A stretch of DNA of 46,635 nucleotides from Acidimicrobiia bacterium (GTDB lineage Bacteria > Acidobacteriota > Vicinamibacteria > Vicinamibacterales > UBA2999). Both the position numbers and the translations under genes were made by a program. Under the pieces are notes generated by a model. It was given only the letters and a program-made list of their open reading frames with translations. It did no database searches and was not told the DNA's origin. This document shows, one piece after another, positions 21,748 through 36,927 of the stretch. The stretch lies in contig VFZG01000027.1 in the NCBI GenBank assembly GCA_016871275.1, positions 1 to 46,635 of the forward strand, read 5' to 3'. Within the stretch, counting starts at the first letter, position 1. Each line of letters begins with the position of its first letter.

Positions 21748-23766
21748 CTAGTCCCCGAGCTTGTAAACCAGCAACTCGCCCGGGTAGCCCGGGCCGCTGA
21801 CCGCCACCGCGAGGTACTGCGTGCCGTTCAGCGAATACGTCATTGGCGATCCGGTCTGCGGCGCCGGCATGAAGACCTGGCCGATGTCTGCGCCGGTGGC
21901 TTTGTCGTAGGCGCGCAGGTAGGCGCCACGACCCTCGGGATACGTGGCGAATCCGCCTTCACCGGCGATCAGCAGCGTCTTCGTGGTCAGCACGCCGATG
22001 CGGCCGGGTCGGCCGGTGCGGGGAATCGTCACGCCTTTCAGCGCCGGGTTGTTCTTGATGTTGTCCGCCGTCTCGCCATGCGGGATGCGCCACATCTGCT
22101 CGCCCTTGTTCATGTCGATGGCGGTAATCGTCGCGTAGGGCGGCTTGATCAGCGGCAGGCCGCGCACGTTGAGGCCGCCACCGCCGCCAGGACCGGCTGG
22201 TTTCGCCGTCGGGTCCGGATTGCGGGCGATTCCGCGCACGTAGAGCATGTCTGACGCGTTGTCCTCGGGCGGCACCAGGTTGAGCGACGTGATGGCGACG
22301 TTGGTGAAAATGTAGAAGCGTTTCGTTTCCGGATCGAACGAACCACCCTGCCAGTTGGCACCGCCGGTCACTTCGGGAATCATCAGCGTGCCGCGCGGGC
22401 CTTCCCATTTGCTGACCACGGGCGGCGTGAAGATCGGCCCCATCTTGTACATCGACGCGACCTTGATCGCCTCGGCGCGAAGTTCCGGCGTCCAGTCCAA
22501 CAGGTCGTCGACCGTCACGCCCTGGCGCTCGTACGCCGGCGGCTTCGTCACGAACGGCTGCGTCGGCGAATACCACTCGCCGGGAACATCGCCCTTTTCC
22601 ACCGGGCGCTCTTCGATCGGCCACACCGGCTTGCCGGTCGCGCGATCGAAGACGTACAGCCAGTTCTGCTTCGTCGGCTGCGCCACCGCTTTCACCGGCT
22701 TGCCGTCGACCACCAGGTCCATCAGGATCGGCGCGCACGGAATGTCGTGATCCCAGATGCCGTGATGCACGAGCTGGTAATGCCACTTGCGCTGTCCGGT
22801 CTTGATGTCGAGCGCGAGCAGCGTCTCGGAGAACAGCGACGTGTCGGGCGAGCCCTTCTTGTTGCCCCTGCGGTGACCGCCGTAATAGTCGCCGGTCGGC
22901 AATTCGACGGGCATGTAGACGATGCCGAGCTCTTCGTCGGCGCTCATCTGGGCCCAGACGCCGGTGTTGCCGGTATACGCGGCCGCGTCCGGATCCCACG
23001 TGTCGTAGCCGAACTCGCCCTTCAGCGGGATGGTGTGGAACACCCAGACGCGCTTGCCGGTGCGCACGTCGAAGCCGCGGATGTGCCCCTTGACGTTGGT
23101 CTTGCTGCGGGGCGCGCCGCCTTCGCGGAGCGCGGCACCAATCACGATGATGTCCTTCGAGACGATCGGCGCGGCGTGCAGGCCAATCTCCGCGGTCGTG
23201 AGGTCGAGGCCTTCCTGATCGAGTCCGAGCTTCAGGTCGACGATGCCGCCGGTGCCGAAGCCGTTGATGCGCTGGCCGGTCACTGCATCGAGCGCGATCA
23301 TCTGGTAACCGGCGGTGACGTAGATGATGCGCTCCTGCTTGCCGTCGCTCCAGTAGGCAAGACCGCGGCCCGACAACTGGCGCGGCGCCGCTTCGCCGCG
23401 TTTGCCCTCGTTGATGCTGTGCATCCACAACTGCTCGCCGGTGGCCGCGTCCATGGCCACCACCGCGCGCCGCGTGCCCGCGGTCGTGAACAGCCGGCCG
23501 TTGACCATCAGCGGCGTGCCCTGGAACTGGAACTCCGGCCGCGGGCCGAAGTGCTCGGTGCGGAATCGGAACGCCAGCTGCAGCTTGCTGAAGTTGCTCG
23601 CGTTGATCTGATCGAGCGGGGAGTAGCGCATACTGGCGAGGTCGCCGCCATAGGTCGCCCATTCACCAACCTTGGGTGCCCATTGCCCGCGCATCGACAC
23701 CGTCGCGGTGCCGACGAACAGGGCCACAACACAGAGCTTCGTAATCCAGCGGCGCAGTCGAGTCAT
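21748..23766 (-). CDS. PQQ-dependent dehydrogenase, quinoprotein glucose dehydrogenase-like
   Basis: 672-aa exported eight-bladed propeller enzyme without a membrane or haem domain. A signal peptide (residues about 1-27) precedes EWATYGGDLASMRYSPLDQIN. Repeated tryptophan-docking motifs include MDAATGEQLWMH, DVRTGKRVWVF and DIKTGQRKWHYQ. The stretch VHHGIWDHDIPCAPIL carries the conserved PQQ-pocket Asp/His pattern of membrane glucose dehydrogenases. Family members oxidise alcohols, aldoses or polyols in the periplasm. The start lies 8 nt from a TATACT box in a palindrome shared with the divergent PEBP gene. PQQ biosynthesis genes are not in the window. Confidence 0.85.
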   Translation of the reverse strand: MTRLRRWITKLCVVALFVGTATVSMRGQWAPKVGEWATYGGDLASMRYSPLDQINASNFSKLQLAFRFRTEHFGPRPEFQFQGTPLMVNGRLFTTAGTRRAVVAMDAATGEQLWMHSINEGKRGEAAPRQLSGRGLAYWSDGKQERIIYVTAGYQMIALDAVTGQRINGFGTGGIVDLKLGLDQEGLDLTTAEIGLHAAPIVSKDIIVIGAALREGGAPRSKTNVKGHIRGFDVRTGKRVWVFHTIPLKGEFGYDTWDPDAAAYTGNTGVWAQMSADEELGIVYMPVELPTGDYYGGHRRGNKKGSPDTSLFSETLLALDIKTGQRKWHYQLVHHGIWDHDIPCAPILMDLVVDGKPVKAVAQPTKQNWLYVFDRATGKPVWPIEERPVEKGDVPGEWYSPTQPFVTKPPAYERQGVTVDDLLDWTPELRAEAIKVASMYKMGPIFTPPVVSKWEGPRGTLMIPEVTGGANWQGGSFDPETKRFYIFTNVAITSLNLVPPEDNASDMLYVRGIARNPDPTAKPAGPGGGGGLNVRGLPLIKPPYATITAIDMNKGEQMWRIPHGETADNIKNNPALKGVTIPRTGRPGRIGVLTTKTLLIAGEGGFATYPEGRGAYLRAYDKATGADIGQVFMPAPQTGSPMTYSLNGTQYLAVAVSGPGYPGELLVYKLGD

Positions 23767-23774
23767 AGCCGCAA

Positions 23775-23782
23775 AGTATACT
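23775..23782. promoter_or_regulatory. palindromic shared -10 box of two divergent genes
   Basis: AGTATACT reads as TATACT on both strands. On the minus strand it lies 8 nt before the PQQ dehydrogenase ATG; on the plus strand it lies 17 nt before the PEBP ATG, which also has a GGAGAGG ribosome-binding site. Symmetric -10 elements are known to drive divergent transcription. Confidence 0.5.
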
Positions 23783-23799
23783 CAAGTTGGAGAGGATTC

Positions 23800-24366
23800 A
23801 TGCGACTTGCAAATGTTATCCATGCCGCGCTTATCTTGACCGTGGCGTCCGCGGCCGCGGCGCAGACACCCGCGGCGTTGACCGTGACGAGCCCCACCAT
23901 CAAGGCGAACGAGACCATCCCCGTCGATCACACGGCCGACGGCAAGAACGAATCGCCGGCCCTGATGTGGAGCGGCGCGCCGGCCGGCACCAGGCAGTTC
24001 GCGCTGGTCTACGACGATCCGGACGTGGTGTTCGGCGGACAGACCTTCGTGCACTGGGTGGTCTACAAGATTCCCGGTACCGCAAAGGGGTTGCCGGCCA
24101 ACCTGCCGATCGATCAGGTCGCGTTGACCGCCCCGGCCGATATCGCCGGATCGATCCAAGGCCTGTCAGGCTTCAAGCGTCCGTACTACCGCGGCCCGGC
24201 CCCGCCGCCAGGCAAGCCGCATCACTACACCTGGACGGTCTACGCCCTTGATGCGGAACTGCCGCTGGTTGAAGGCCTTACGCGCAACCAGTTGATGGAA
24301 GCGATCAAGGGCCACATCATCGGCCAGGGCGCGCTGGTCGCGATTTATGAGAGGAAGCCGAAATAG
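23800..24366 (+). CDS. YbhB/YbcL family PEBP-like protein, exported
   Basis: 188-aa phosphatidylethanolamine-binding-protein fold (Raf-kinase-inhibitor-like). A signal peptide ending SAAAAQ precedes LTVTSPTIKANETIPVDHT. The family core follows: ESPALMWSGAPAGTRQFALV, DPDVVFGGQTFVHWVVYKIP and the C-terminal HHYTWTVYALDAELPL. Bacterial members bind small anionic ligands, but their role is mostly unknown. The ATG at 23800 has GGAGAGG just upstream and opens the signal peptide; the open frame upstream of it is antisense to the PQQ gene. It is transcribed divergently from that gene. Confidence 0.9.
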   Translation: MRLANVIHAALILTVASAAAAQTPAALTVTSPTIKANETIPVDHTADGKNESPALMWSGAPAGTRQFALVYDDPDVVFGGQTFVHWVVYKIPGTAKGLPANLPIDQVALTAPADIAGSIQGLSGFKRPYYRGPAPPPGKPHHYTWTVYALDAELPLVEGLTRNQLMEAIKGHIIGQGALVAIYERKPK

Positions 24367-24382
24367 ATGAACCTGTGGATCT

Positions 24383-24438
24383 CTCGATCGGTTGATCAGC
24401 TGACCTAGATCAACAGGTCACCAAGTCGACCGATCGAG
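24383..24438. terminator. nested inverted repeat between convergent genes
   Basis: CTCGATCGGT (24383-24392) is the exact inverse of ACCGATCGAG (24429-24438), and inside it TTGATC (24392-24397) pairs with GATCAA (24408-24413). It lies between the convergent ends of the PEBP and GMC genes and could stop transcription from both sides, though there is no T-run. Confidence 0.45.
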
Positions 24439-24441
24439 CGA

Positions 24442-26145
24442 TCACGCCGTCACGCCTCGCCAGTTCCTGGCGAGATATTCCGCCGTCCGCCATGCTAGCG
24501 CCTGCACCGTGAGCGTGGGGTTCCGCGCGCCGCTCGTGCCCATGACCGACGCGCCCAGCACGCCGAGGTTCGGCACCTCGTGAGAGAAGCCCCACTCATT
24601 GACGACATTGGTCTCGGGGTTGCGGCCCATGCGCGTGCCGCCGTAGGCGTGCGTGCTGGGTCCCATGGAGCCGAGTGGATTCGCCTGGGTCTCAATCGCG
24701 CCCGCCGCGCGATACCACTCCGACATCTTTTCCTGGGTGTGCGCCATGATGCGCCGCTCGTTGTCCTTGAAGTCGGCGGTGATGCGCAGCACCGGGAAGC
24801 CCAGCGGATCCTTCGCGACCGGATCGAGATCGCAGTAGTTGTCCTCGTAGGGCAGCGTGGTCTTCTGGATGTAGGCGGTGTTGGTGCGATCGGCGTTCTC
24901 CATCACGAACTTCTTCCACGCCGGCCCCCAGGCCGGCGCCTTGCCGAACGTGCCCATGCCGGCCGCCGAAATGGGACGGCGGTCCGACATCACCCACAGG
25001 TTGCCGCCGCCGATGAAGTCGTGCGCGCCGTGATCGAAGTTGTCGTCGGCGAAGTTGTCCACCGCCACGCCCTGTGCGGGCAGGCCGTACCAGGAATTCA
25101 GGTTGAACGGGAACAGCGCGGTGACGCCGCCACCCTGCGCGTGGCTCAGGTAGTGACGCCCGACCTGGCCCTGGTTGTTCGACAGGCCCTTCGGATGCGC
25201 CGTTGATGTCGAGAGCAGCAGCAGCCGGATGTTTTCGTAGGTGTAGCTGGCGAGCAGCACCACCTTGGCCGGCTGGAAGAACTCTGCCTTGTCGGTCACG
25301 TAGGTCACGCCGGTCACGCGGCCCTTGTCGTCGGTGTTGATCCGCGTCGCGTGCGCGCGCGTCACCACCTGCAGGCGGCCCGACTGTTGCGCGCGCGGAA
25401 TCGTGGTCAGGTGAGGGCCGTTCTTCGCATCCACGTGGCAGCCGCCCTTGTTGCAGAAGCCGTGATACATGCACGCGGCGCGGTTCTGGTACGGCCGTGA
25501 GTTGATCGACGCCGGGCCGGGGAAGGGATGCCACCCGAGGTTGCGGGCGGCCTCCGCCATGCGATCGATGAAGCCGGTGCTGCGCAGCGGCGGCATGGGG
25601 AACGCGCGATGGCGCGGACCTTCGAAGATGTTGCCGCGCTTGTCGATCGCGCCCTTGATGTTGCCGGCCTGGCCCGAGACGCCGGTCTCGTACTCGACCT
25701 TGTCGTAGTACGGCTCGAGCTCTTCGAGCCCGAACGGCCAGTCTTCCACCGTCGATCCGGCGGGGATGCGCGCAGCACCGTAGCGTTTGGTGGTGTCGCT
25801 GACGACCCTGAAGTCCCACGGATTGAGCCGCCAGCTCTGCGCCCAGTAGTGCAGCGTGGTGCCGCCGACCGCGTTCATCATCGGATGGCTGCCGGCGCGC
25901 GTGGTGCTGGCCTTGGCGTTGACGCGCTGCGTGGGCACTTCCAGTTGCGCCTTCTGCACCGCCATCGGCCAGTCGCGCACGTTGTTGCGAAGTTCATCCG
26001 GCGCGAAGTCGCGCCTGGTGAGCCACGTGCCGGCTTCAAGGCCGACCACGTCGATGCCGGCCTGGGTGAGCGGCAGCACGGCCACGCCGCCGGCCGCGCC
26101 GAGTCCGACCACCACGACATCCGTGGGCTTCAGATTAGTGGTCAT
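24442..26145 (-). CDS. GMC-family oxidoreductase (gluconate 2-dehydrogenase-like large subunit)
   Basis: 567-aa FAD enzyme. The N-terminal dinucleotide fold VVVGLGAAGGVAVLPL is followed by the GMC-type GGTTLHYWAQSWRLNP. A cysteine-bearing segment, RAACMYHGFCNKGGC, resembles those in gluconate and sorbitol dehydrogenase large subunits. The C-terminal catalytic region has HAYGGTRMG and LGASVMGTSGARNPTLT. Together with the Tat-exported small subunit upstream, which overlaps it by 11 bp, it forms a periplasmic sugar or sugar-acid dehydrogenase. The usual multihaem cytochrome subunit is not encoded next to it. ATG at 26145 gives the proper N-terminus. Confidence 0.88.
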   Translation of the reverse strand: MTTNLKPTDVVVVGLGAAGGVAVLPLTQAGIDVVGLEAGTWLTRRDFAPDELRNNVRDWPMAVQKAQLEVPTQRVNAKASTTRAGSHPMMNAVGGTTLHYWAQSWRLNPWDFRVVSDTTKRYGAARIPAGSTVEDWPFGLEELEPYYDKVEYETGVSGQAGNIKGAIDKRGNIFEGPRHRAFPMPPLRSTGFIDRMAEAARNLGWHPFPGPASINSRPYQNRAACMYHGFCNKGGCHVDAKNGPHLTTIPRAQQSGRLQVVTRAHATRINTDDKGRVTGVTYVTDKAEFFQPAKVVLLASYTYENIRLLLLSTSTAHPKGLSNNQGQVGRHYLSHAQGGGVTALFPFNLNSWYGLPAQGVAVDNFADDNFDHGAHDFIGGGNLWVMSDRRPISAAGMGTFGKAPAWGPAWKKFVMENADRTNTAYIQKTTLPYEDNYCDLDPVAKDPLGFPVLRITADFKDNERRIMAHTQEKMSEWYRAAGAIETQANPLGSMGPSTHAYGGTRMGRNPETNVVNEWGFSHEVPNLGVLGASVMGTSGARNPTLTVQALAWRTAEYLARNWRGVTA

Positions 26146-26824
26146 GACGATCCGCCTTGGTGAACAGGTCGTTGTCGTAGGCGGAACGGTGCGTCGGCTC
26201 GAGCTTGGCGCCGAGCGCCTGGTCAGCCTGCGAGACGTTGAGCCGGATGCCGGGATAGCCGAGCAGGTCCCAGCCAACGAAGTTGCGGTTGCCGCCATAG
26301 TAGGGATCGCCGAACGTGCCCTGCAGCGTGTGTGTCCGCACCATGTTGAAGAACTGCGTGGAGCTGCCCGCGAAGCCGGTGGCGGCGCCGATCTCGACGT
26401 CGATCAACGCCGAGTCCTGGTCGCGCGGCGACAGGTTTGCAAACGCATCGCGGCGCGATGAGCGCACGTAGCGATCGAACGCGGCCAGGCCGGAGCGATA
26501 CGCGTCGCGCTGCTCCCTGAGCGCGCCGCCGAGCGCGCGATCGATGTAGTGCGCGGCCCGCGCTTCGCGCGCGCCCGGGCCGTTGGCATCCGACGGGATC
26601 AACTTGGCGCAGATCAGCTCGAGGAGGTCCATCTCTTCGGCGGTGAGATTCTCGAGCGGCTCACGTCGCGGCGGCGTCTGTTGCTCGAGGTCCGGCGCGG
26701 CGGCCGTCGCATCCGCCACGCCGGCCGGGATCGCCGGTGTGAGCGGTATCGTCAATGCGGCGCCGGCCCATCCGGCGCGCTTGAGCAGATCGCGTCGCGA
26801 AACGCCCCTGGTGTCGTCTGCCAT
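26135..26824 (-). CDS. gluconate 2-dehydrogenase subunit 3 family protein
   Basis: 229-aa protein with a clear Tat signal (SRRDLLKRAGWAGAAL, residues about 9-24). A helical domain starts with LTAEEMDLLELICAKLIPSD, the signature of gluconate 2-dehydrogenase subunit 3. The subunit is thought to carry its GMC partner, which lacks a signal peptide, through the Tat pathway. Its 3' end overlaps the GMC gene by 11 bp. Upstream is the large hairpin element 26849-27074. Confidence 0.88.
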   Translation of the reverse strand: MADDTRGVSRRDLLKRAGWAGAALTIPLTPAIPAGVADATAAAPDLEQQTPPRREPLENLTAEEMDLLELICAKLIPSDANGPGAREARAAHYIDRALGGALREQRDAYRSGLAAFDRYVRSSRRDAFANLSPRDQDSALIDVEIGAATGFAGSSTQFFNMVRTHTLQGTFGDPYYGGNRNFVGWDLLGYPGIRLNVSQADQALGAKLEPTHRSAYDNDLFTKADRHDH

Positions 26825-27102: not shown

Positions 27103-27888
27103 ATGAACCGTGTCTGCTTGACGCTTGGTCTGCTGTTCATCGCTTCTGCCGCCAATGCTCAGGTCCTCGATCTGTGGCCGCAGGGAAAAATCGCCTTCGG
27201 CGTCTACGCGCCCAGCGAAGCCGAGCGCGGCAAGCCGCCGGTCTACACCGCGGATGGTGCCGCCAAGGTCGCGGCCAATGCGCTCTACGACTTCGTGTTT
27301 CTCAACCTCGAAGGCGCCTACGATCCGGCGGCCGTGAAGGCGTACGGCTCCGGCCTCAAGAAGGCCAGCAAGAAGACGCTCATCGTCCGCATCCCGCCGA
27401 TTCCGAAGGACGGCGCCGACGCGACCCGGGCGCGCGTCAAGGAGATCCTCGATGCCGGCGCGGATGGCGTCACGATTCCGCACATCCGCGACCTCGACGA
27501 AGCAAAGCTCGCGCTCGGTTTCTTCCTAGCGGCGAAGGCCGACGTGTGGTCGCCGAGGAATCCGAAGGGCACCAAGCTCGCGATGCTGATGCTCGAAGAT
27601 CCCAAGGCGATCGCGCAGCGCAAGGAGATCGCCGAGCTGCCGCACCTCAGCATCCTGGCGTGCGGCATCGGCAGCCTGACCCAGGCCCTCGGCGGCGATC
27701 GCGCCGGCGCCGAAGCCGCCACGCAGCAGGTGCTTGCGGAAACCAGGCGGCTGAAGATTGGCAACATGCTGCCGGCCACCGTGAAGGATGTGGCGCAGCG
27801 CGTCACAGAGGGCTTCAACGCCGTCTTGGGGAACGGACCGCAGGCCGACGAGATGATCAAGATCGGCCGAGCCGCCGCTGGTCGATAA
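27103..27888 (+). CDS. exported HpcH/HpaI aldolase-like protein, apparently degenerate
   Basis: 261-aa protein with a signal peptide (LTLGLLFIASAANAQ) followed by a single HpcH/HpaI-type barrel: IAFGVYAPSEAERG, YDFVFLNLEGAYDP, LIVRIPPIP, GADGVTIPHIRDLDEA, and LMLEDPKAI through ACGIGSLTQALGG. Class II hydroxy-acid aldolases of this family use a His in the D.EHG motif and a metal-binding Asp in GP.DL. Here these read LEGAY and GIGSL, so both residues appear lost, while the arginine of VRI and the glutamate of LED remain. Export is unusual for this family. A TAGCAT box 6 nt upstream suggests a leaderless transcript. A paralogue lies at 35217-36218. Binding rather than catalysis is possible (inference). 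Confidence 0.8.
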   Translation: MNRVCLTLGLLFIASAANAQVLDLWPQGKIAFGVYAPSEAERGKPPVYTADGAAKVAANALYDFVFLNLEGAYDPAAVKAYGSGLKKASKKTLIVRIPPIPKDGADATRARVKEILDAGADGVTIPHIRDLDEAKLALGFFLAAKADVWSPRNPKGTKLAMLMLEDPKAIAQRKEIAELPHLSILACGIGSLTQALGGDRAGAEAATQQVLAETRRLKIGNMLPATVKDVAQRVTEGFNAVLGNGPQADEMIKIGRAAAGR

Positions 27889-28495: not shown

Positions 28496-29506
28496 ATGAT
28501 GTTCGACGAACGGCTGAAGACTGGCCCGGTCCTGGCGCTGGCGCCCATGCAGGAAGTGACCGACGGCGCGTTCTGGACGCTGGTGCATCAATACGGCGGC
28601 GCCGACGTCTACTGGACCGAGTACTTCCGCGTGCATTCCTCGTCGACGCCGGAGACGCGGATCATCCACGCGATCAACACCAACACCACCGGCCGGCCGG
28701 TCATCGCGCAGATGATCGGCAACGATCCGGCGGAGCTGGCACGCACGGCGAAGTTCCTCCAGCAACTGCCGATCGCGGCGATCGACCTGAATCTTGGATG
28801 CCCGGCGCCGATCGTCTACCGCAAGTGCGCCGGCGGGGGATTGTTGCGCGAGCCGGAGCGCATCGACGCGATTCTTGGCGCGCTCCGCGACGCGGTGCGG
28901 ATCAAGCTCACCGTCAAGACGCGCCTTGGGTTTGCGTCGGCCGATGAGTTCGATCGGTTGCTGGCGGTGTTCGCGAAGCACTCGCTGGATGCGTTGACGG
29001 TGCACGCGCGCACCGTGGCCCAGAGGTATCGGTTGCCGGTGCACTACGACCGCATCCGCCAGGCGGTACAGACCATGAACTGCCCGGTGATCGCCAACGG
29101 CCATGTGTACTCGGCCGAGCAGGCAGAGGCGCTGCTCGCCGAGACCGGCGCGCGCGGCTTGATGATTGGCCGCGGCGCGATTCGCAGTCCGTGGCTGTTC
29201 ACTCAGATCCGGCAGCGGCTGCGGGGCGAAGCGGTGAGGCATCCGACCGGTCGCGACGTCGGCGGCTACATTCGTGCGCTGTGGGATACGCAGGCGTCGT
29301 TCGCGACCGCGGAGAAGACGCACTGCGATCGCATGAAGAAGTTCCTCAACTACCTGGGCGAGGGCGTGCCGGGTCCGTTCCTGCAGCAGGTCCGCCGGTC
29401 GCAGACCGCCGCGGAGTTCGAGCGCATTTGCCGCGATTTTCTCGACCACGATCGCCCTATGCCGCTGCTGCCGGCTGAGCTGACACACGAGTTGGTGTCG
29501 GCCTGA
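28496..29506 (+). CDS. tRNA-dihydrouridine synthase
   Basis: 336-aa FMN enzyme that reduces uridine to dihydrouridine in tRNA D-loops. The barrel carries APMQEVTDGAFW, AIDLNLGCPAPIVYRKCAGG (with the catalytic cysteine in RKC), LTVKTRLGF, LTVHARTVAQRY, VIANGHVYS and GLMIGRGAIRSPWLF. The C-terminal helical domain recognises tRNA. It is a Dus-family protein; DusA, DusB or DusC type is not clear. Two adjacent ATGs (28496 and 28499) could both serve as start. Confidence 0.92.
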   Translation: MMFDERLKTGPVLALAPMQEVTDGAFWTLVHQYGGADVYWTEYFRVHSSSTPETRIIHAINTNTTGRPVIAQMIGNDPAELARTAKFLQQLPIAAIDLNLGCPAPIVYRKCAGGGLLREPERIDAILGALRDAVRIKLTVKTRLGFASADEFDRLLAVFAKHSLDALTVHARTVAQRYRLPVHYDRIRQAVQTMNCPVIANGHVYSAEQAEALLAETGARGLMIGRGAIRSPWLFTQIRQRLRGEAVRHPTGRDVGGYIRALWDTQASFATAEKTHCDRMKKFLNYLGEGVPGPFLQQVRRSQTAAEFERICRDFLDHDRPMPLLPAELTHELVSA

Positions 29507-29611
29507 TTCGCACGGGCTCCGGGAAAAAGGCGCTCGTATCCGTTCATCCGCGCCGTATGGGCCGCCTGCAGGTGTCACCGGATGTCTCTGTAGGCACAGC
29601 ACTTAGTCGGC

Positions 29612-29617
29612 TATACT
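29612..29617 (+). promoter_or_regulatory. -10 box of the DUF1592 operon
   Basis: TATACT lies 18 nt before the ATG at 29636, after a gene-free 129-bp gap, with only a weak -35 (TGTAGG) 17 nt further upstream. The implied leader is about a dozen nucleotides with AAAGG near the start. Confidence 0.4.
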
Positions 29618-29635
29618 GGCGCCAAGAAAGGCACC

Positions 29636-32071
29636 ATGACACGAGTCCTTATCGCAGTGGCCGTTGCTGCGATTCCGGCCCTTCAACTGCACGCGCAGAC
29701 TCAGGCAGCGCCTGCCATGCCGCCGGCTCCAAAGCCAGCCGTTGCTCGCGCACCAGCCTTCGGCCCGGTCGAACAAAGCGCGATGGTGAAGCAGTACTGC
29801 GTCACCTGCCATAACGATCGTGCCAGGGCCGGTCAGCTCTCGCTGGTCGGATTCGATGCCGCCCGTGCGGCCACTCCCGAACACCTCGTCACCACCGAAA
29901 AGATGATTCGCAAGCTGCGCGCCGGCATGATGCCGCCGGTGACCGCGCGCCGGCCGGCGGCCGAGCAGATTTCGTCGCTGGCCACCGCGCTCGAGACGCG
30001 CGTCGATCGCGCGGCGCTCACGAATCCGAATCCGGGCTCGCGCCCGTTCCAGCGGCTGAATCGCGCCGAGTACGGCCGCGCCATCAGGGACCTGCTCGGC
30101 CTGGACGTGGACGTCGAGGGCCTGCTGCCCGCCGACACGATCAGCAACGGCTTCGACAACGTCGCCGACTCACAGGCGTTCTCGACGACGCTGATGGAGA
30201 GTTATTTGCGGGCGGCGGCCAAGGTCACCGCGCTGGCGATCGGCGACAGGAACGCGCCGGCCACCGAAACCAACTACCGCATCCCGAAGACCGCATCGCA
30301 GTTGACGCGGGCCGACGGCGCGCCATTCGGCACGCGCGGCGGCATCTCCACGCCGCACACGTTCCCCGCCGACGGCGAATACGTCTTCAAGGCGGAGTTG
30401 CACAGCAACGCGTGTGGTGTGCTGTTCGGCGGCCCGACTGACGGCGAGCAGATCGAGATCTCGGTCGATGGCGAGCGCAAGGCGCTGCTGCGCATCGATC
30501 CGCGCATGGCCGAGACGACCACCGGCCTGTCGCTGAAGACGCCGGCGATTCACGTATCCGCCGGCGAGCATCGTGTCACCGCGGCGTTCATCCAGCGCTT
30601 CGAGGGGCCGGTCAACGATTTGATCGCGCCGATCGATCACACGCTGGCCGACACGCAGATCGGCGTCGCGATCGGCATCACCACGCTGCCGCACGTCAAG
30701 GACTTCAGCATCGTCGGGCCCTACAACGTCACCGGCATCTCCGATACGCCGAGCCGCCGGAAGATCTTCGCGTGCCGGCCGACGTCGGCGGCCGACGAGC
30801 CGGTGTGTGCGGGCCGCATCATCCGTGCGCTGGCGTCGCAGGCGTTCCGCGGTCCGGTCGGCGATCGCGACTTCACCGCCCTGATGAAGTTCTATTCGGA
30901 CGGCCGGAAGGAAGGCGACTTCGAATACGCCATTGGCGGCGCCATCGAGGCCATCCTCGCCAGCCCGCAGTTCCTGTTCCGTCTCGAGAGCACGCCCACG
31001 ACGCTGCGCGCGGGACAGTCGTTCCGTCTTGGCGACGCGGAACTGGCGTCGCGGCTGTCGTACTTCATCTGGGGCTCGGCGCCGGATGCCGAGCTGACCA
31101 AGCTGGCCGCATCAGGCCGCTTGAGCGCGCCGGGCGTGTACGAGAAGCAGGTGGCGCGATTGCTCGCCGATCCGCGATCCGAAGGCCTGTCGAAGCGCTT
31201 TGCGCGCCAGTGGCTGCGGTTGGGCGACGTGGACGGCGTGCTGCCGGACGCGGTGGCCTACCCGTACTTCGATCGCACGCTGGGTGATGCGTTCGTCAAG
31301 GAGTCGGAGCTGTTCTTCGACAGCCTGGTGCGCGAGGACCGCAACGTCCTGGATCTGCTGACCGCGGACTACTCGTTCGTCAACGAGCGCATCGCGCGCC
31401 ACTACGGCATTCCCAACGTGACCGGCAACGCCTTCCGCCGCGTCACGCTGCCGCCCGAGCGGCGCGGCATCCTGACGCATGGCAGCGTGCTGGTGCTGAC
31501 GTCGGTGGCCGATCGCACGTCACCGGTGATGCGTGGCAAGTGGGTGATGGAAGTGATGATGGGCTCGCCGCCGCCGGCGCCGCCTGCCGACGTGCCGGCG
31601 TTCGACGAGACCAAGGGCCAGAACGACGGCAAGGTGCTGACGGTTCGCGAGCGCATGGAAGTGCATCGCGCCAACCCGACCTGCATGTCGTGCCATCGCG
31701 TGATCGATCCGATTGGCCTGGCGCTCGAGAACTTCGATGTCACCGGCAAGTACCGCATCAAGGATGCGGGCACTGGTGTCGACACGACCGGCGTGCTGTA
31801 TGACGGCCAGCAGATTACCGGCGCCGCGGGATTGCGTGGTGCGCTGATGCGTCACCAGGACGTGGTGCTGCTCAGCTTCACGGAGAACCTGTTGACCTAT
31901 GCGCTCGGCCGCCGCGTCGAGGCCCAGGACATGTGGGGGGTGCGCCGCGTGATCGGCGACGCGCAGAAGAAGGGCCTGAAGATCTCAGCGTTCGTGCAGG
32001 GAGTGGCGACCAGCCCGTTGTTTACGATGGGTCGAGTCGCGGAGCCGGTTCACGCCGCAGCGGAGCGATAA
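29636..32071 (+). CDS. diheme DUF1587/DUF1592/DUF1588/DUF1585 exported protein
   Basis: 811-aa secreted protein of the type often called planctomycete-cytochrome-associated. A signal peptide (ending ALQLHAQ) and a Pro/Ala linker precede a first haem site, CVTCH (55-59). Then come DUF1587 (RPFQRLNRAEYGRAIRDLLG, about 140-205), DUF1592 (ELASRLSYFIWGSAPDAEL, about 450-580) and DUF1588 (RRGILTHGSVLVLTSVADRT, about 600-670). A second haem site, CMSCH (683-687), sits in a CHRVIDPIGLALENFD context, followed by DUF1585. It always seems to be paired with a DUF1552 gene, as here (start abuts the stop). Electron transfer outside the cytoplasm is likely; the substrate is unknown. Confidence 0.9.
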   Translation: MTRVLIAVAVAAIPALQLHAQTQAAPAMPPAPKPAVARAPAFGPVEQSAMVKQYCVTCHNDRARAGQLSLVGFDAARAATPEHLVTTEKMIRKLRAGMMPPVTARRPAAEQISSLATALETRVDRAALTNPNPGSRPFQRLNRAEYGRAIRDLLGLDVDVEGLLPADTISNGFDNVADSQAFSTTLMESYLRAAAKVTALAIGDRNAPATETNYRIPKTASQLTRADGAPFGTRGGISTPHTFPADGEYVFKAELHSNACGVLFGGPTDGEQIEISVDGERKALLRIDPRMAETTTGLSLKTPAIHVSAGEHRVTAAFIQRFEGPVNDLIAPIDHTLADTQIGVAIGITTLPHVKDFSIVGPYNVTGISDTPSRRKIFACRPTSAADEPVCAGRIIRALASQAFRGPVGDRDFTALMKFYSDGRKEGDFEYAIGGAIEAILASPQFLFRLESTPTTLRAGQSFRLGDAELASRLSYFIWGSAPDAELTKLAASGRLSAPGVYEKQVARLLADPRSEGLSKRFARQWLRLGDVDGVLPDAVAYPYFDRTLGDAFVKESELFFDSLVREDRNVLDLLTADYSFVNERIARHYGIPNVTGNAFRRVTLPPERRGILTHGSVLVLTSVADRTSPVMRGKWVMEVMMGSPPPAPPADVPAFDETKGQNDGKVLTVRERMEVHRANPTCMSCHRVIDPIGLALENFDVTGKYRIKDAGTGVDTTGVLYDGQQITGAAGLRGALMRHQDVVLLSFTENLLTYALGRRVEAQDMWGVRRVIGDAQKKGLKISAFVQGVATSPLFTMGRVAEPVHAAAER

Positions 32072-33463
32072 ATGCATCTCATCACTCACCAGCCTCTTCA
32101 TCGTCGGACCGTGCTTCGTGGACTCGGCGCCACCGTGGCGTTGCCGTTCCTCGACGCGATGATGCCCGCGCGCGCATCGGCGCAGACTCGCAAGGTGCGC
32201 CTGGTGGCCATGGAGATGGTGCACGGCTCGGCCGGCAGCACCGCGTTCGGCGCCACCAGGAACCTGTGGGCGCCTGCCGCCACCGGCTCGGCGTTCGACC
32301 TGAGCCCGACCGCGATGGCACCGCTCGAGCCGTGGCGCGACTACCTCACCATTGTCAGCAACACCGACGTGCGGATGGCCGAGGCGTTTTCGCCGCCCGA
32401 GATCGGCGGCGATCACTTCCGATCGGCCTCGGTGTTCCTGACGCAGTCACATCCGAAGCAGACGCAGGGCTCCGACCTCAAGGTCTCCACCTCGCTCGAC
32501 CAGTTGTACGCGCAGAAGTTCGGCCAGGAAACGCCGATGCCGTCCATGCAGTTGTGCGTCGAGAACGTCGACCAGGCCGGTGGCTGCTTCTACGGCTACT
32601 CGTGCGCCTACACCGACTCGATCAGCTGGAAGACCGAGGAAGAGCCGCTGCCGATGATCCGCGACCCGCGCGCGGTGTTCGACCAGTTGTTCGGCATCGG
32701 CGCCACGCCCGAAGCGCGCGCCAGCCGCCGCCGCCGCGATCGCAGCATCCTCGACTGGGTGACGGAATCATCGAAGCAGTTGAAGGCGCAACTCGGCGCC
32801 GCCGATCAGATCCGGCTGGCGGACTACCTCGAGGACGTGCGCGAAATCGAGCGGCGCATCCAGAAGGTCGAGGCGCAGAACACCTCGGGCGAAGCGCGCG
32901 CCATACCGGGCGCGCCGATCGGCGTGCCGGACTCCTACGACGAGCACGTCAAGCTGATGTTCGACATGCAGGTGGTGGCGTTCGCCTCCGACGTCACGCG
33001 CGTCGTCGCCTTCAAGTTGAGCCGCGACGTGTCGAATCGTGTCTACCCGGAGACTGGCGTCAACACCGGCTTCCACATTGCATCGCACCACGGCGAGCGT
33101 GAGGATCGCATCATCGATCTGGCGAAGATTAATCGCTACCACGTCGGCCTGGTGCCGTACTTCATGAAGAAGCTGAAGGAGACGCCGGACGGCGACCGCA
33201 ACCTGCTCGAGAATTCGCTGTTGATCTACGGATCGCCGATGGGCAACTCGAACGTGCACAACCATAAGCGCTGCCCGCTGTTCCTTGCCGGCCATGCCGC
33301 CGGCGCGCTCAAGGGCAACCTGCACATCAAGGCCGCCGACGGCACGCCGATGGCCAATGCCATGCTCGGCGCGCTGCGCGGTATCGGCCTTGACCTGCCG
33401 TCGTTCGGCGACAGCAACGCAGTGATGGATCTCAATAAGGCTCCGGAGGCGACGGTAGCGTGA
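32072..33463 (+). CDS. DUF1552 Tat-exported protein
   Basis: 463-aa protein beginning with a twin-arginine signal (HRRTVLRGLGATVALPF). The DUF1552 body contains the typical HGSAGSTAFGAT, DHFRSASVFLTQSHPKQT, SMQLCVENVDQAGGCFYGYS, and a C-terminal LLIYGSPMGNSNVHNHKRCP block. The fold is related to the DUF1501/alkaline-phosphatase-like group, but no activity is established. Its ATG directly follows the stop of the diheme DUF1592 gene, and its TGA overlaps the ankyrin gene (TGATG). The three are one transcription unit and probably a functional set in the cell envelope. Confidence 0.9.
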   Translation: MHLITHQPLHRRTVLRGLGATVALPFLDAMMPARASAQTRKVRLVAMEMVHGSAGSTAFGATRNLWAPAATGSAFDLSPTAMAPLEPWRDYLTIVSNTDVRMAEAFSPPEIGGDHFRSASVFLTQSHPKQTQGSDLKVSTSLDQLYAQKFGQETPMPSMQLCVENVDQAGGCFYGYSCAYTDSISWKTEEEPLPMIRDPRAVFDQLFGIGATPEARASRRRRDRSILDWVTESSKQLKAQLGAADQIRLADYLEDVREIERRIQKVEAQNTSGEARAIPGAPIGVPDSYDEHVKLMFDMQVVAFASDVTRVVAFKLSRDVSNRVYPETGVNTGFHIASHHGEREDRIIDLAKINRYHVGLVPYFMKKLKETPDGDRNLLENSLLIYGSPMGNSNVHNHKRCPLFLAGHAAGALKGNLHIKAADGTPMANAMLGALRGIGLDLPSFGDSNAVMDLNKAPEATVA

Positions 33464-35133
33464 TGCAGACCAACAAGTTGTGCGCAGTGCTCCTCGCGGC
33501 GACTCTGAGCACCGCGGTCGCGGCATCGGGTCCTGCTGACATTGCGAATGCCGCACAGGCGAAAGATGCGGCTGCCGTCAGGAAGCTGTTGAAGGATGGC
33601 GCCGACGTCAACGCCGCGCAGGGCGACGGCATGACGGCGCTGCACTGGGCCGCGCTCAACGGCGATGCGGAGCTGGCGTCCATGCTGTTGTATGCGGGCG
33701 CGAATGTCGGCGCGAAGACGCGTATTGGCGGCTACACGCCGCTGCACCTGGCCGCCCAGGTCGGTGCCGCGAACGTGATCGCGCCGCTGATTGCATCCGG
33801 TGCCCCGGTGGCAGCTGCGACATCAACCGGCGCCACCGCGTTGATGCAGGCCGCCCATTCCGGCAGCACCGAAGCGGTGCGCATCCTGATCGAGAACGGT
33901 TCGGACGTGAACGCGAAGGAGACCGCCAACGGCCAGACGGCGTTGATGTTTGCCGCCGCCTCCGATCGCACCGACGTCGTGAAGATGCTGCTCGCGCGCG
34001 GCGCCGACCTTGCCGCCACCTCGCGTGTCCAGGACTTCTCGGCCCTGACGACAAGCGCGCAGGTGGATCAGGCTGGTGTGCCGGTTCAGGCGCAGGCCGC
34101 GCAGCGCGGCGACGTGCCCGGCGTGACGCGGCCGTTCAACTACAACGAATTGATCGGCAAGCACGGCGGCCTGGCGGCGCTGCACTTTGCGGCACGGCAG
34201 GGCTCGATGTCGGCGGTCGAGGCGCTGTTGGCCGCCGGCGCCGACGTGAATCAGCGGTGTGCCGGGGACCAGACGACGCCAATCATCGTGGCGGCGGTGA
34301 ACGGCCATTTCGACCTGGTCAGCTATCTGCTGGACCAGGGCGCGAATCCGAACCTGGTGAGCGAAGGCGGCATGTTCCCGCTCTACGCGGTGCTCAATAC
34401 CCAGTGGCAGCCGCGATCGTTCTATCCGCAGCCCCGCGCCTATCTGCAGCAGAAGACGGACTACCTGACGTTGATGAAGAAGCTGCTCGACAAGGGTGCC
34501 GATCCCAACGCGCGCATCTATCGCAAGCCGTGGTTCACCGAGTACAACTTCGAGCTGCTGCGCACGGACGATTCAGGTGCGAGCGCGTTCTGGCGCGCCG
34601 CCTGGGGCGCCGACATCGCGGCGATGAAGCTGCTCGTCGAGCACGGCGCCGATCCCAACATCCGCACGATGAAGATCGCCTCCCGCGGTTTCGGCCAGGG
34701 CGGCACGCGCGGCGGCAGCGACACGGATCCGCTGGGCCGAGCCCCGATGCCGACTGGCGGCCCCGGCGCGACGCCGCTGATCGCCGTCGCCGGCACCGGC
34801 TATAGCGAGGGCTTTGCCGGCAATGCGCATCGCTACGCGCCGACCGGCTTGCTCGCCGCCGCCAAGTACCTGGTGGATGAACTGAGTGCCGACGTCAATG
34901 CCGAAGACGAGGACGGTAACACCGCGGTGCACAACGCCGCCTCGCGCGGCGACAACGAGATGATCCTGTACCTGGTGTCGAAGGGCGCCGACGTGAAGAA
35001 AATCAACCGGCGCGGCCAGACCACGGTGGACCTGGCCAACGGCCCCGTGCAGCGCACGCAGCCCTATCCAGAGACGATCAAGCTGTTAGAGGGGATGGGC
35101 GCGAAGAACAACCACAAGTGCGTGAGCTGCTAG
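33463..35133 (+). CDS. exported ankyrin-repeat protein ending in CXXC
   Basis: 556-aa protein with a signal peptide (ending STAVAAS) and about ten ankyrin repeats in two blocks (roughly 25-190 and 220-540). Examples are DGMTALHWAALNGDAELASM, GYTPLHLAAQVG and NTAVHNAASRGDNEMILYL. Between them and in the middle lies a non-ankyrin insert rich in Gly/Pro. The last six residues are HKCVSC, a CXXC that stops one residue short of a haem motif. Ankyrin repeats bind proteins, so it may tether the DUF1592/DUF1552 pair. The ATG overlaps the DUF1552 stop by one base. Exported ankyrin proteins next to this pair appear to be a lineage feature (inference). Confidence 0.88.
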   Translation: MQTNKLCAVLLAATLSTAVAASGPADIANAAQAKDAAAVRKLLKDGADVNAAQGDGMTALHWAALNGDAELASMLLYAGANVGAKTRIGGYTPLHLAAQVGAANVIAPLIASGAPVAAATSTGATALMQAAHSGSTEAVRILIENGSDVNAKETANGQTALMFAAASDRTDVVKMLLARGADLAATSRVQDFSALTTSAQVDQAGVPVQAQAAQRGDVPGVTRPFNYNELIGKHGGLAALHFAARQGSMSAVEALLAAGADVNQRCAGDQTTPIIVAAVNGHFDLVSYLLDQGANPNLVSEGGMFPLYAVLNTQWQPRSFYPQPRAYLQQKTDYLTLMKKLLDKGADPNARIYRKPWFTEYNFELLRTDDSGASAFWRAAWGADIAAMKLLVEHGADPNIRTMKIASRGFGQGGTRGGSDTDPLGRAPMPTGGPGATPLIAVAGTGYSEGFAGNAHRYAPTGLLAAAKYLVDELSADVNAEDEDGNTAVHNAASRGDNEMILYLVSKGADVKKINRRGQTTVDLANGPVQRTQPYPETIKLLEGMGAKNNHKCVSC

Positions 35134-35150
35134 AGGATGGGGGTCGGGGT

Positions 35151-35220
35151 TTAAGGGCTTAGGGGCTTAAGGGCTTAGAAACCTCTGGGCCCATAGGCTC
35201 CTAAGCCCCTAGGCCCCTAA
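35151..35220. terminator. long inverted repeat between convergent genes
   Basis: TTAGGGGCTTAAGGGCTTAG (35159-35178) matches the inverse of 35201-35220 at 18 of 20 positions, with a 22-nt loop containing GGGCCC. The left arm is made of tandem GGGCTTA units. It separates the ankyrin gene from the convergent aldolase-like gene and includes the latter's TAG stop. A bidirectional terminator function is plausible. Confidence 0.55.
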
Positions 35221-36218
35221 TTCCTCCCACCCGCTTTCTTCCCGATCTCGATCGCCTTGAATCCCGCATCGCCCCAGTTCATCACGAACACGCTGAAGCC
35301 CTGCTTCATGCGCATCTCGATGTCGGTGGGTGAGGCGGGGTAGCCGCACGGCACCTTGAACTCCTTGCACGCGGCCAGCACCTTCTGAATCGATGCTTCC
35401 CACGCCGCTTCATCGAGCTGGCGCGTGCCGTCCGGCTGCTGGGTCGTGAACAACCCGCGCAGCGTGCCGGCGCCCGGCCACAGTACGCCGACGCCCTTCA
35501 CGGCGGCGATCTCGCGCACCTTGTCGAGGCCAGCCTTGCTTTCGACAATCGTCCAGTTCACCAGCTCGCCGTTCCGGTTGAGCGGCCACAGGTCGGCCTT
35601 TTCCTTGTAGTCTTTCTCGCTCATGCCCCAGAACGCCGGCGCGTTGCCGACGTTGTCCGAGCGCGTGCCGCCCTTGGACGCGAAGCGCATTGCGTTGATG
35701 CCGGTCTGCACTTCCTCGGCGCTCTCGGCGCTGACGAACATGATGCCGGTGACGCCCATGTTCAACTGGCGTCCGATGTTCTCGGCGGCTTTGGGATTGC
35801 CGGCAATCTCGTTCATCTTCACGACGACGGACTTGGCGAGGCGCGGCTGCGGTGCCTTGAGCAGGAGGCCGGCGGTGGCCATGCCGTTCATCAACTGCTG
35901 GAACTGGGTGGCGGCGCTGTCGAAGTTGCCTTCCATGCTGCCGTCGAAAATGAAGTCGCTGTTGGCGAACCCGACGGCTTCCTTGGCGATCTCGGCCGGT
36001 GACTTCGGAGGCAGCGCGTCGGCAGGAGGCGTGGCGGGGCGGGCGGCGCCGGAGGGACCGCCGCCACCGAAGCGGCGATTGCTCGGCGCATAGAGCCCGA
36101 ACACGGGCTTCTTGGCGGCCAGCAACTCAACCATCGGGTTGAATCGCGTTGGGGCCTCGGCGGTTGCGAGCGTTCCCGCCGCCACCGCAACAATCGTGAT
36201 CGCCAGAACTGCACGCAT
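35217..36218 (-). CDS. exported HpcH/HpaI aldolase-like protein, apparently degenerate
   Basis: 333-aa protein with a signal peptide (LAITIVAVAAGTLATA) and an aldolase-superfamily barrel. It starts PMVELLAAKKPVFGLYAPSN, followed by a Gly/Pro/Ala-rich loop, SDFIFDGSMEGNFDS, KSVVVKMNEIAGNP, VTGIMFVSAESAEEV, WTIVESKAGLDKV and VLWPGAGTLRGLF. The family's catalytic His (EHG) and metal-site Asp (GP.DL) positions read EGN and PGAGTL, so both seem missing; the VRI arginine is replaced by Lys, while the ESK glutamate is kept. It is a distant paralogue of 27103-27888 and converges on the ankyrin operon. The ATG at 36218 follows GGAGAAG. Confidence 0.8.
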   Translation of the reverse strand: MRAVLAITIVAVAAGTLATAEAPTRFNPMVELLAAKKPVFGLYAPSNRRFGGGGPSGAARPATPPADALPPKSPAEIAKEAVGFANSDFIFDGSMEGNFDSAATQFQQLMNGMATAGLLLKAPQPRLAKSVVVKMNEIAGNPKAAENIGRQLNMGVTGIMFVSAESAEEVQTGINAMRFASKGGTRSDNVGNAPAFWGMSEKDYKEKADLWPLNRNGELVNWTIVESKAGLDKVREIAAVKGVGVLWPGAGTLRGLFTTQQPDGTRQLDEAAWEASIQKVLAACKEFKVPCGYPASPTDIEMRMKQGFSVFVMNWGDAGFKAIEIGKKAGGRN

Positions 36219-36258
36219 GGTCTTCTCCACGTACGCAGAGACCGCATCGAATTCCGCT

Positions 36259-36281
36259 GGTGCGGGGTCAGTCCCCGTTAC
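36259..36281 (+). repeat. solitary REP sequence
   Basis: All 23 bp match the REPs that bound the transposase at 15579-16340 (core CGGGG-TCAGT-CCCCG); the flanking ACAAA is shared with the left copy only. It stands alone about 20 kb from the transposase, upstream of a decayed ankyrin gene, as expected of a non-autonomous REP dispersed by the RAYT. Confidence 0.88.
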
Positions 36282-36422
36282 AAACGGCAGTATATGCTGC
36301 AAACAGTGAAGGAATTGCGATGGCGGGTGGCGGTGACAAGAGAAGACGAACGGGGCGGAGCCCTGCATCGCGCCCTCGAGGATGCGTTGCACTGAGCGCG
36401 CTGCTGATACTCGCGGCCGAGC

Positions 36423-36927
36423 CTGGCGGCGCACGTCGAGACCGTCGGTCATCCAGGTTCGCCGGTCCACCGCTTCGCGCGCGCCATCGAGGCAGTGATT
36501 GACGGCGACCTGACCACGCAGCCCAACGGCGCCGGCCATTGGACATCGCCCATTGAGACAGCGCTCGTGTTCAACATGCTCGAGGGGGTTCATCGGCTGG
36601 TGGAGCGAGGTGCTGCGGTGGAGCGCCTTGCCGTGGCCGCCGGTCTCGGCCGTCTCGATGACGTCAGGCGGATGTTGCCGGCGGCGTCTGCCCTCGACCG
36701 CCGGCGAAGATCCCAATCGATTCAATCCGCCGGGCACGCACGCCCACACTCGGCCCCTGCACCAGGCCGTCGCGGCCGGTCATCTGGACGTGGTGAAAGT
36801 GCTCATCGAACGTGGCGCCCGCCTCGACATCCGCGACACGATCCATCACGGCACGCCGCTTTGTTGGGTGCAGTACTGCGGCCAGCCGGCGATCGCCGAA
36901 TACCTGGAATCCTGCGGCGCGGCCTAG
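36423..36927 (+). pseudogene. decayed ankyrin-repeat gene
   Basis: One frame reads LAAHVETVGHPGSPVHRFAR, then IEAVIDGDLTT, SPIETALVFNMLEGVHRLVE and GLGRLDDVRRMLP up to about 36700. Similarity then continues in another frame, GEDPNRFNPPGTHAHTRPLH, VAAGHLDVVKVLIERGARLD and GQPAIAEYLESCGAA, ending at 36927. This shows at least one frameshift. Upstream of 36407 the first frame is stopped and no start is found, and the expected central repeats are absent, so there was probably also an internal deletion. The 36282-36422 stretch shows nothing else that can be supported. It belonged to a cytoplasmic ankyrin family without signal peptide. Confidence 0.65.

Follow-up and report, generated by a model that had tools for sequence, protein, structure and literature searches.

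A conserved DUF1592-DUF1552-ankyrin gene trio with a CxxC-ending ankyrin protein: a putative envelope redox system of Acidobacteriota and Gemmatimonadota

The stretch of DNA analysed here (46,635 nucleotides, positions 1 to 46,635 of the forward strand of contig VFZG01000027.1, hereafter the window) is contig C27 of the 3.96 Mb genome of Acidimicrobiia bacterium (GenBank assembly GCA_016871275.1; GTDB lineage Bacteria; Acidobacteriota; Vicinamibacteria; Vicinamibacterales; UBA2999). It encodes three adjacent genes for a DUF1592-type diheme cytochrome, a DUF1552 protein and an ankyrin-repeat protein that ends in a CxxC motif. We consider it very likely that the three proteins genuinely work as a unit and that the CxxC tail is under selection. 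They probably form an undescribed electron-transferring complex, and many soil and water bacteria inherit the three genes as a single cassette. Taken as a whole, the best explanation is a periplasmic three-protein oxidoreductase that uses the tail as a dithiol arm, with a rough probability of 40%. For comparison with relatives, DUF1552 proteins with good coverage and at least 650 bits against the trio profile are termed trio-type (n = 121) and those below 650 bits others (n = 56). Open reading frames (ORFs) covering fewer than 350 profile positions were excluded from the trio counts; seven of those excluded, each below 650 bits (loci L122, L128 twice, L142, L150 twice and L163), are cut or frame-broken pieces beside a CxxC ankyrin. 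The genes and motifs of the window's trio are as follows.

29636..32071, + strand: DUF1592-type (PSD3-PSD5-PSD4-PSCyt3-PSD2) diheme cytochrome, predicted exported, 811 amino acids (Pfam, ORF, CxxCH conservation)
29798..29812, + strand: first CxxCH haem motif, DUF1592 residues 55-59 (kept in 99/100 trio-type and 47/47 other relatives)
31682..31696, + strand: second CxxCH haem motif, DUF1592 residues 683-687 (kept in 100/100 trio-type and 47/47 other relatives)
32072..33463, + strand: DUF1552 (HXXSHH) protein with twin-arginine signal and predicted alkaline-phosphatase/sulfatase fold, 463 amino acids (Pfam, structure model, VIA-align)
33074..33091, + strand: HXXSHH motif, DUF1552 residues 335-340 (H335 and H339 in 121/121 trio-type and 56/56 others)
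33272..33274, + strand: codon of DUF1552 Cys401 (Cys in 105/121 trio-type and 0/56 others)
33460..35133, + strand: ankyrin-repeat protein, predicted exported, 557 amino acids (GTG start, ATG at 33463 also possible; Pfam, model, conservation)
35119..35130, + strand: terminal CVSC, ankyrin residues 554-557, the final four codons before the stop (DNA; 118/119 homologues)

A preliminary description of the window had placed three envelope proteins here with no or overlapping spacing, and the three ORFs are indeed present at these coordinates, abutting or overlapping, with all three families recognized by Pfam. Read from the DNA, the TAA stop of the DUF1592 gene ends at 32071 and the ATG of the DUF1552 gene begins at 32072, and the TGA of the latter ends at 33463, where the ankyrin gene starts either with GTG at 33460 (a four-base overlap) or with ATG at 33463. 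Every domain of the DUF1592 protein (PSD3, PSD5, PSD4, PSCyt3 and PSD2) lies above the Pfam cut-off and its two conserved CxxCH motifs fit the label diheme given earlier, the DUF1552 protein matches PF07586 (E 3e-85), and the ankyrin protein combines ankyrin repeats with a hydrophobic signal-like N-terminus and the C-terminal residues NNHKCVSC, in line with its description as an exported ankyrin protein ending in CVSC. Likewise, the proposed twin-arginine translocation (Tat) signal of the DUF1552 protein is consistent with a twin arginine (R11R12) present in 177/177 aligned relatives. Export of all three proteins is predicted from their N-termini as judged by eye. Across relatives the intergenic gaps within the trio are short, with medians of about 20 and 13 bases when starts are extrapolated. 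A promoter and terminator scan of positions 29000-35700 returned no signal above shuffles, and no gene fusions joining trio members were found in 572 matching ORFs.

The source genome contains eight DUF1552 and eight DUF1592 matches, all of them paired, and an ankyrin gene lies directly downstream of the pair in 8/8 cases; contig C19 carries three such trios head to tail. Six of the eight trio ankyrins, including that of the window, end in CxxC; the terminal motif is absent from the more distant copies on contigs C37 and C67. Since 33 of the genome's 34 Ank_2 matches fall inside the eight trio ankyrin genes, ankyrin repeats are all but exclusive to this module in the source genome. The only Ank_2 match elsewhere is a 124-amino-acid ankyrin-repeat ORF at 36553-36927 (+ strand), which overlaps an antisense aldolase-like ORF described below.

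In other genomes, 72 loci show the same gene order, DUF1592-DUF1552-ankyrin, wherever the contig extends far enough, and tandem copies are frequent. Among the best 80 matches, relatives of the ankyrin gene belong mostly to Acidobacteriota (including Vicinamibacterales) and Gemmatimonadota, so that the range of the trio comprises at least these two phyla; one relative record (L112) is titled Cyanobacteria. Within the family, an ankyrin match at E <= 0.001, a threshold that other ankyrins can reach as well, was obtained in 38/43 genomes, DUF1552 occurs in 36/43 and a strict ankyrin match in 29/43, all 29 of them among those 36; in the order, 91/162 genomes contain an ankyrin profile match at E <= 1e-60. 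Wherever 1 kb or more of upstream sequence is present, a distinct CxxC ankyrin is immediately preceded by DUF1552 (112/112), and where 3 kb or more can be seen, DUF1592 in turn precedes this DUF1552 in 85 of 87 CxxC cases, counting fragments. Seen from the other side, 109 of the 114 assessable trio-type DUF1552 genes (7 of the 121 lie at a contig edge or have a cut ankyrin) are directly followed by a CxxC ankyrin; of the remaining five, four lack their own ankyrin, and in L232 the ankyrin has no CxxC. The count of 109, rather than the 108 returned by the script, treats the ankyrin of L144 as a CxxC protein, as its second part ends in CVSC, and the tree described below was labelled likewise. 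In this metagenome-assembled genome a frame break divides the trio ankyrin gene (L144:2032-3793), leaving two ORFs. Other DUF1552 genes present a different picture: no CxxC ankyrin follows any of the 52 assessable ones (4 being at an edge or cut), which have an ankyrin directly downstream in 22 cases (0/22 with CxxC), upstream in 9 and none near in 21. The linkage of the ankyrin gene with the pair, which the preliminary description had put forward, is thus conserved both in the source genome (8/8) and across relatives (109/114).

The provenance of these loci bears on how the counts are to be read. Loci L047-L076 and L097-L168 were found by an ankyrin query and L083-L096 were drawn from the same list, and L191-L250 (59 of 60 used; L243, a mistaken stretch, was dropped) were hand-picked from length-limited DUF1552 lists, giving a spread and not a random sample. 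The 59 loci chosen by DUF1552 include 12 trio-type genes, 3 of them cut by contig ends, and a CxxC ankyrin lies behind 8 of the other 9.

The three genes also diverge together. Among 82 complete trios, drawn from 48 genome labels, pairwise distances correlate between ankyrin and DUF1552 (r 0.93) and between ankyrin and DUF1592 (r 0.95), and shuffling the ankyrins within genomes yields a mean r of about 0.70, with 0/2000 shuffles reaching the observed correlation. Because this co-divergence exceeds that of the within-genome shuffles, an individual ankyrin generally goes with the pair beside it. DUF1552 and the ankyrin point to the same nearest foreign trio in 37/56 cases. In a FastTree phylogeny of 176 DUF1552 proteins, which has long branches, the label 'CxxC ankyrin downstream' requires 3 changes versus a shuffled mean of 47, and the label 'any ankyrin near' requires 8.

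The terminal CxxC, on whose conservation the preliminary proposal also depended, is near-invariant. It ends 118 of the 119 distinct strong ankyrin ORF sequences with a stop (above 400 bits), being exactly terminal in 113 and followed by one extra residue in 5; counted by the last 100 residues (n = 117), it is found in 116 and exactly terminal in 111. The tail consensus is NN-[HN]-[KRN]-C-[VIL]-[ST]-C with both cysteines in 118/118 tails and His (99/118) or Asn (15/118) at position -6, and the two tail cysteines are the only Cys columns common to even a quarter of 24 aligned ankyrins. By comparison, 19 of 12,495 other six-frame ORFs from the same loci, most of which are not genes, end exactly in CxxC. 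The single strong ankyrin without CxxC adjoins a DUF1552 protein without Cys401. The stop codons behind the motif are mixed (TGA 64, TAG 46, TAA 9), so read-through or selenocysteine insertion past the CxxC was rejected. The ankyrin model (predicted local distance difference test, pLDDT, 82.4; predicted template modelling score, pTM, 0.80) comprises a confident solenoid with a final helix to residue 545 and aligns with known ankyrins at Z up to 30.9. Residues 551-557 are of low model confidence (mean pLDDT 54). Pfam identified no thioredoxin domain, and the CxxC sits in this low-confidence tail of the ankyrin solenoid and not in a thioredoxin fold. NCBIfam returned for the ankyrin protein only models below cut-off, mostly ankyrin effectors.

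The DUF1552 model (pLDDT 82.7, pTM 0.86) is predicted to share the overall fold of sulfatases and nucleotide pyrophosphatases of the alkaline-phosphatase superfamily, with VIA-align Z scores of 14.8-16.1 and root-mean-square deviations of 3.4-5.6 over 240-288 residues (50 entries listed), at an identity of 7-13%. Foldseek gave no match for the same model at E <= 0.001 (best 1.2e-3), sequence searches against solved structures yielded nothing meaningful for DUF1552 or DUF1592, and neither protein matched an NCBIfam or PHROGs entry. The stretch 387-403 of DUF1552, inspected by eye, is reminiscent of the sulfatase region at the last metal histidine. Histidines 335 and 339 are present in 177/177 aligned DUF1552 relatives and histidines 115, 340 and 396 in 174 to 176 of 177; HXXSHH, H115, H396 and the pair C172/C178 are common to most of both DUF1552 groups. 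The trio-type proteins are distinguished by residues that include E48 (121/121 vs 2/56 others), H51 (121/121 vs 5/56), K315 (121/121 vs 2/56), D319 (121/121 vs 6/56) and C401 (105/121 vs 0/56). Four genomes of family f8 (G107, G112, G094 and G079) contain 41-48 first-look DUF1552 candidates each, of which 17 per genome were scored, a large paralogue expansion.

Besides the two CxxCH sites, M99 and H677 of the DUF1592 protein are invariant and may represent further haem ligands. The two conserved haem motifs fit a redox setting. In Cellvibrio japonicus, the protein Cbp2D, which carries a DUF1587 domain and two single-haem domains, has been studied as a possible electron donor of lytic polysaccharide monooxygenases (PMC8981238); it differs from the proteins described here in its carbohydrate-binding and YceI-like domains, and the portion of the article consulted mentions no DUF1552 or ankyrin partner.

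We hypothesize that the DUF1552 protein, exported folded via Tat, would hold its substrate in a sulfatase-like pocket with a histidine-rich, probably metal-binding site of its own, and that the diheme DUF1592 protein would carry electrons between this site and the respiratory chain. As a dedicated partner, the ankyrin solenoid could keep DUF1552 and DUF1592 together or choose the substrate; the flexible tail bearing its CxxC would act as a movable arm, most probably in the form of a dithiol exchanging electrons or disulfides with this pair. Complex formation and the direction of electron flow are what we infer from the arrangement, and the chemistry of the tail is the more tentative part: the proposal that the CxxC is a redox arm is less probable than its alternatives combined, and a metal-binding tail or a disulfide tether would fit nearly as well as a dithiol. 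The boldest form of the idea, in which a sulfatase-fold protein has turned redox enzyme and the ankyrin dithiol arm moves back and forth between the active site of DUF1552 and the diheme DUF1592 protein, appears unlikely in its entirety. A redox role as such draws support from the conserved pair of haem motifs and, to a lesser degree, from the Sphingobium cytochrome genes described below. The preliminary description had regarded the trio, possibly with a convergent aldolase-like gene, as a candidate for an undescribed envelope redox system; conservation and co-inheritance of the unit and its near-invariant CxxC support the part concerning the trio, and its haem motifs fit a redox setting. The accompanying suggestion that the ankyrin protein could dock or redox-couple the pair stays tentative, and the aldolase-like gene has to be dropped from the proposal.

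Several observations weigh against an oxidoreductase with a dithiol arm. Many of the loci were selected by an ankyrin query and with search patterns in the C-terminal part, so that raw co-occurrence is inflated and intact C-termini may be over-represented. In the tandem arrays of four loci (L096, L119, L132 and L162), one trio-type pair each lacks its own ankyrin; there the ankyrin-less DUF1592-DUF1552 pair is placed as if it shared the ankyrin of its neighbour. The ankyrins directly downstream of other DUF1552 subfamilies lack CxxC throughout (0/22), from which it follows that the basic machine can run without this motif. Furthermore, Cys401 is not visible in 15 trio-type DUF1552 proteins beside a CxxC ankyrin (9 Val, 5 Ala, 1 gap), which weakens its candidacy as an obligatory partner of the tail, and the histidine at position -6 of most tails is as compatible with metal binding as with a dithiol.

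That histidine is the basis of an alternative in which the tail forms a metal site, H/N-x-C-x-x-C, that delivers or completes a centre (e.g. copper, iron or zinc) on DUF1552 or DUF1592. The prevalence of His or Asn at this position and the several invariant or nearly invariant DUF1552 histidines (335, 339, 115, 340 and 396) favour such a function, but only the two cysteines, and not His -6, are invariant, and Tat cargo, to which DUF1552 with its twin-arginine signal would belong, normally acquires its metal before export; we hold a metal site to be rather unlikely, although it deserves serious consideration. A purely structural role is a little less probable still: the ankyrin protein would be a scaffold or substrate receptor, as its solenoid fold suggests, and the CxxC a tether whose intermolecular disulfide locks the trio together or anchors it in the envelope. 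The exact C-terminal position in 113/118 tails and the third cysteine of trio-type DUF1552 proteins are compatible with such a tether, which is at odds with the 15 trio-type proteins in which that cysteine is not seen and with the fact that a single tether would require one cysteine only.

The strict position of the motif, with the remaining five tails just one residue longer, could also reflect a C-terminal processing or sorting signal that is not part of the workings of the enzyme complex. A general signal of this kind would be expected on other proteins, however, and so few of the other six-frame ORFs, counted within these loci, end in this way that we regard a sorting signal as improbable. 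Finally, the four trio-type pairs without an ankyrin and the 21/52 assessable other-subfamily DUF1552 genes with none nearby could be taken to mean that the ankyrin gene is an unrelated chance neighbour. To this we attach next to no weight: the ankyrin follows every pair of the source genome, the gene order is conserved in two phyla, linkage holds from both the trio-type DUF1552 (109/114) and the CxxC ankyrin side (112/112), and co-divergence goes beyond the shuffles, and chance linkage was therefore rejected.

DUF1592-type cytochromes encoded next to a second conserved gene are already in print, and the ankyrin partner appears to be the new part. In Verrucomicrobia, PSCyt3/PSD genes have been described beside a gene family of unknown type, with nothing known of their function (PMC5615132). 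The portion of that account consulted describes a similar domain set with a haem motif and a conserved adjacent second gene, which we read as DUF1552 although the family is not named there, and it mentions neither an ankyrin partner nor a CxxC tail. No paper joining DUF1552 or DUF1592 with an ankyrin protein was found in the open-licence literature searched, where any of six domain terms of the pair occurs in five papers (PMC5615132, PMC8981238, PMC6004670, PMC2754498 and PMC7789669). No ankyrin gene lies close to the pair carried by a Planctomyces plasmid (L254). In Sphingobium herbicidovorans and Sphingobium sp. TomTYG64 (NZ_CP020539.1, AP027328.1; plasmid pairs at L252:13352-17498 and L253:13307-17497), two genes matching DUF1592 and DUF1552 occur in the same order with a TonB receptor near, and are followed by third and fourth genes annotated as cytochrome c or c' and as cytochrome b561 or b/b6 instead of an ankyrin. 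By analogy, these cytochrome genes would weakly point to electron exchange with the membrane. Contrastingly, the Sphingobium DUF1552 is about 26% identical and lacks the HXXSHH pattern, and its DUF1592 protein is short with one CxxCH; this makes the analogy weak, a further point against the proposed oxidoreductase, and Sphingobium a poor candidate for a close analogue.

A closer counterpart is encoded by Novosphingobium sp. KACC 22771 (NZ_CP117882.1), in which a DUF1592 protein with two CxxCH motifs, a DUF1552 protein with HMLSHH (38.9% identical) and an ankyrin protein occur in the same order. This trio is located on a plasmid (L251:12398-17623), and the plasmid table lists no feature there. 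Its ankyrin ends in ...QASPAT without CxxC, which indicates either that the ankyrin partner is wider spread than the CxxC tail or that it was gained repeatedly.

If the trio is the oxidoreductase we propose, its paralogous cassettes, eight in this genome and with more DUF1552 copies in some relatives, could be separate systems for individual substrates. DUF1592 and DUF1552 genes are numerous in many Acidobacteriota genomes, and a functional handle on them would be valuable, since nothing is known of what the related genes do according to the Verrucomicrobia account (PMC5615132). The trio offers such a handle in the form of a defined three-protein unit with two tail residues to mutate, and the subfamily can be recognized by Cys401 together with the putative active-site signature E48, H51, K315 and D319. 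A related trio with a complete plasmid record exists in Novosphingobium.

The genes flanking the trio in the window include two that encode aldolase-like proteins.

27103..27888, + strand: upstream HpcH/HpaI aldolase-like gene (ALD2) with signal-like N-terminus (Pfam E 6e-6)
35217..36749, - strand: convergent HpcH/HpaI aldolase-like gene (ALD; Pfam E 2e-7), true start probably internal

The suggestion that the convergent gene belongs to the system did not hold up: ALD is near 8 of 92 loci (L077-L168), all of them orthologous trios of the same genus and some the same contig counted twice, and ALD2 is near 14 of these 92. As neither was found in the stretches around the other seven trios of the source genome, linkage is local only and the aldolase-like genes were rejected as core parts. 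Upstream of the first aldolase-like gene, positions 21748-26824 encode a pyrroloquinoline quinone (PQQ) dehydrogenase, a glucose-methanol-choline (GMC) oxidoreductase and a gluconate 2-dehydrogenase subunit 3, which together form an oxidation cluster; the subunit-3 gene recurs beside orthologous trios of the genus (6/93 loci). The aldolase-like, GMC oxidoreductase and PQQ dehydrogenase genes suggest oxidative carbohydrate or alcohol metabolism at the window locus, outside the conserved unit. A census of neighbours at 93 loci, restricted to the 45 largest clusters listed, was noisy because its biggest clusters consisted of shadow ORFs from high-GC (guanine-cytosine) DNA; the genuine neighbours that recurred were a CarboxypepD_reg-containing outer-membrane barrel (17/93 loci) and a DUF5916 protein (8/93). 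Between the convergent ankyrin and aldolase-like genes, positions 35140-35215 contain repeated TTAAGGGC/GGGCTTAG units opposite CTAAGCCCCTA, which look like a two-way terminator or a small repeat.

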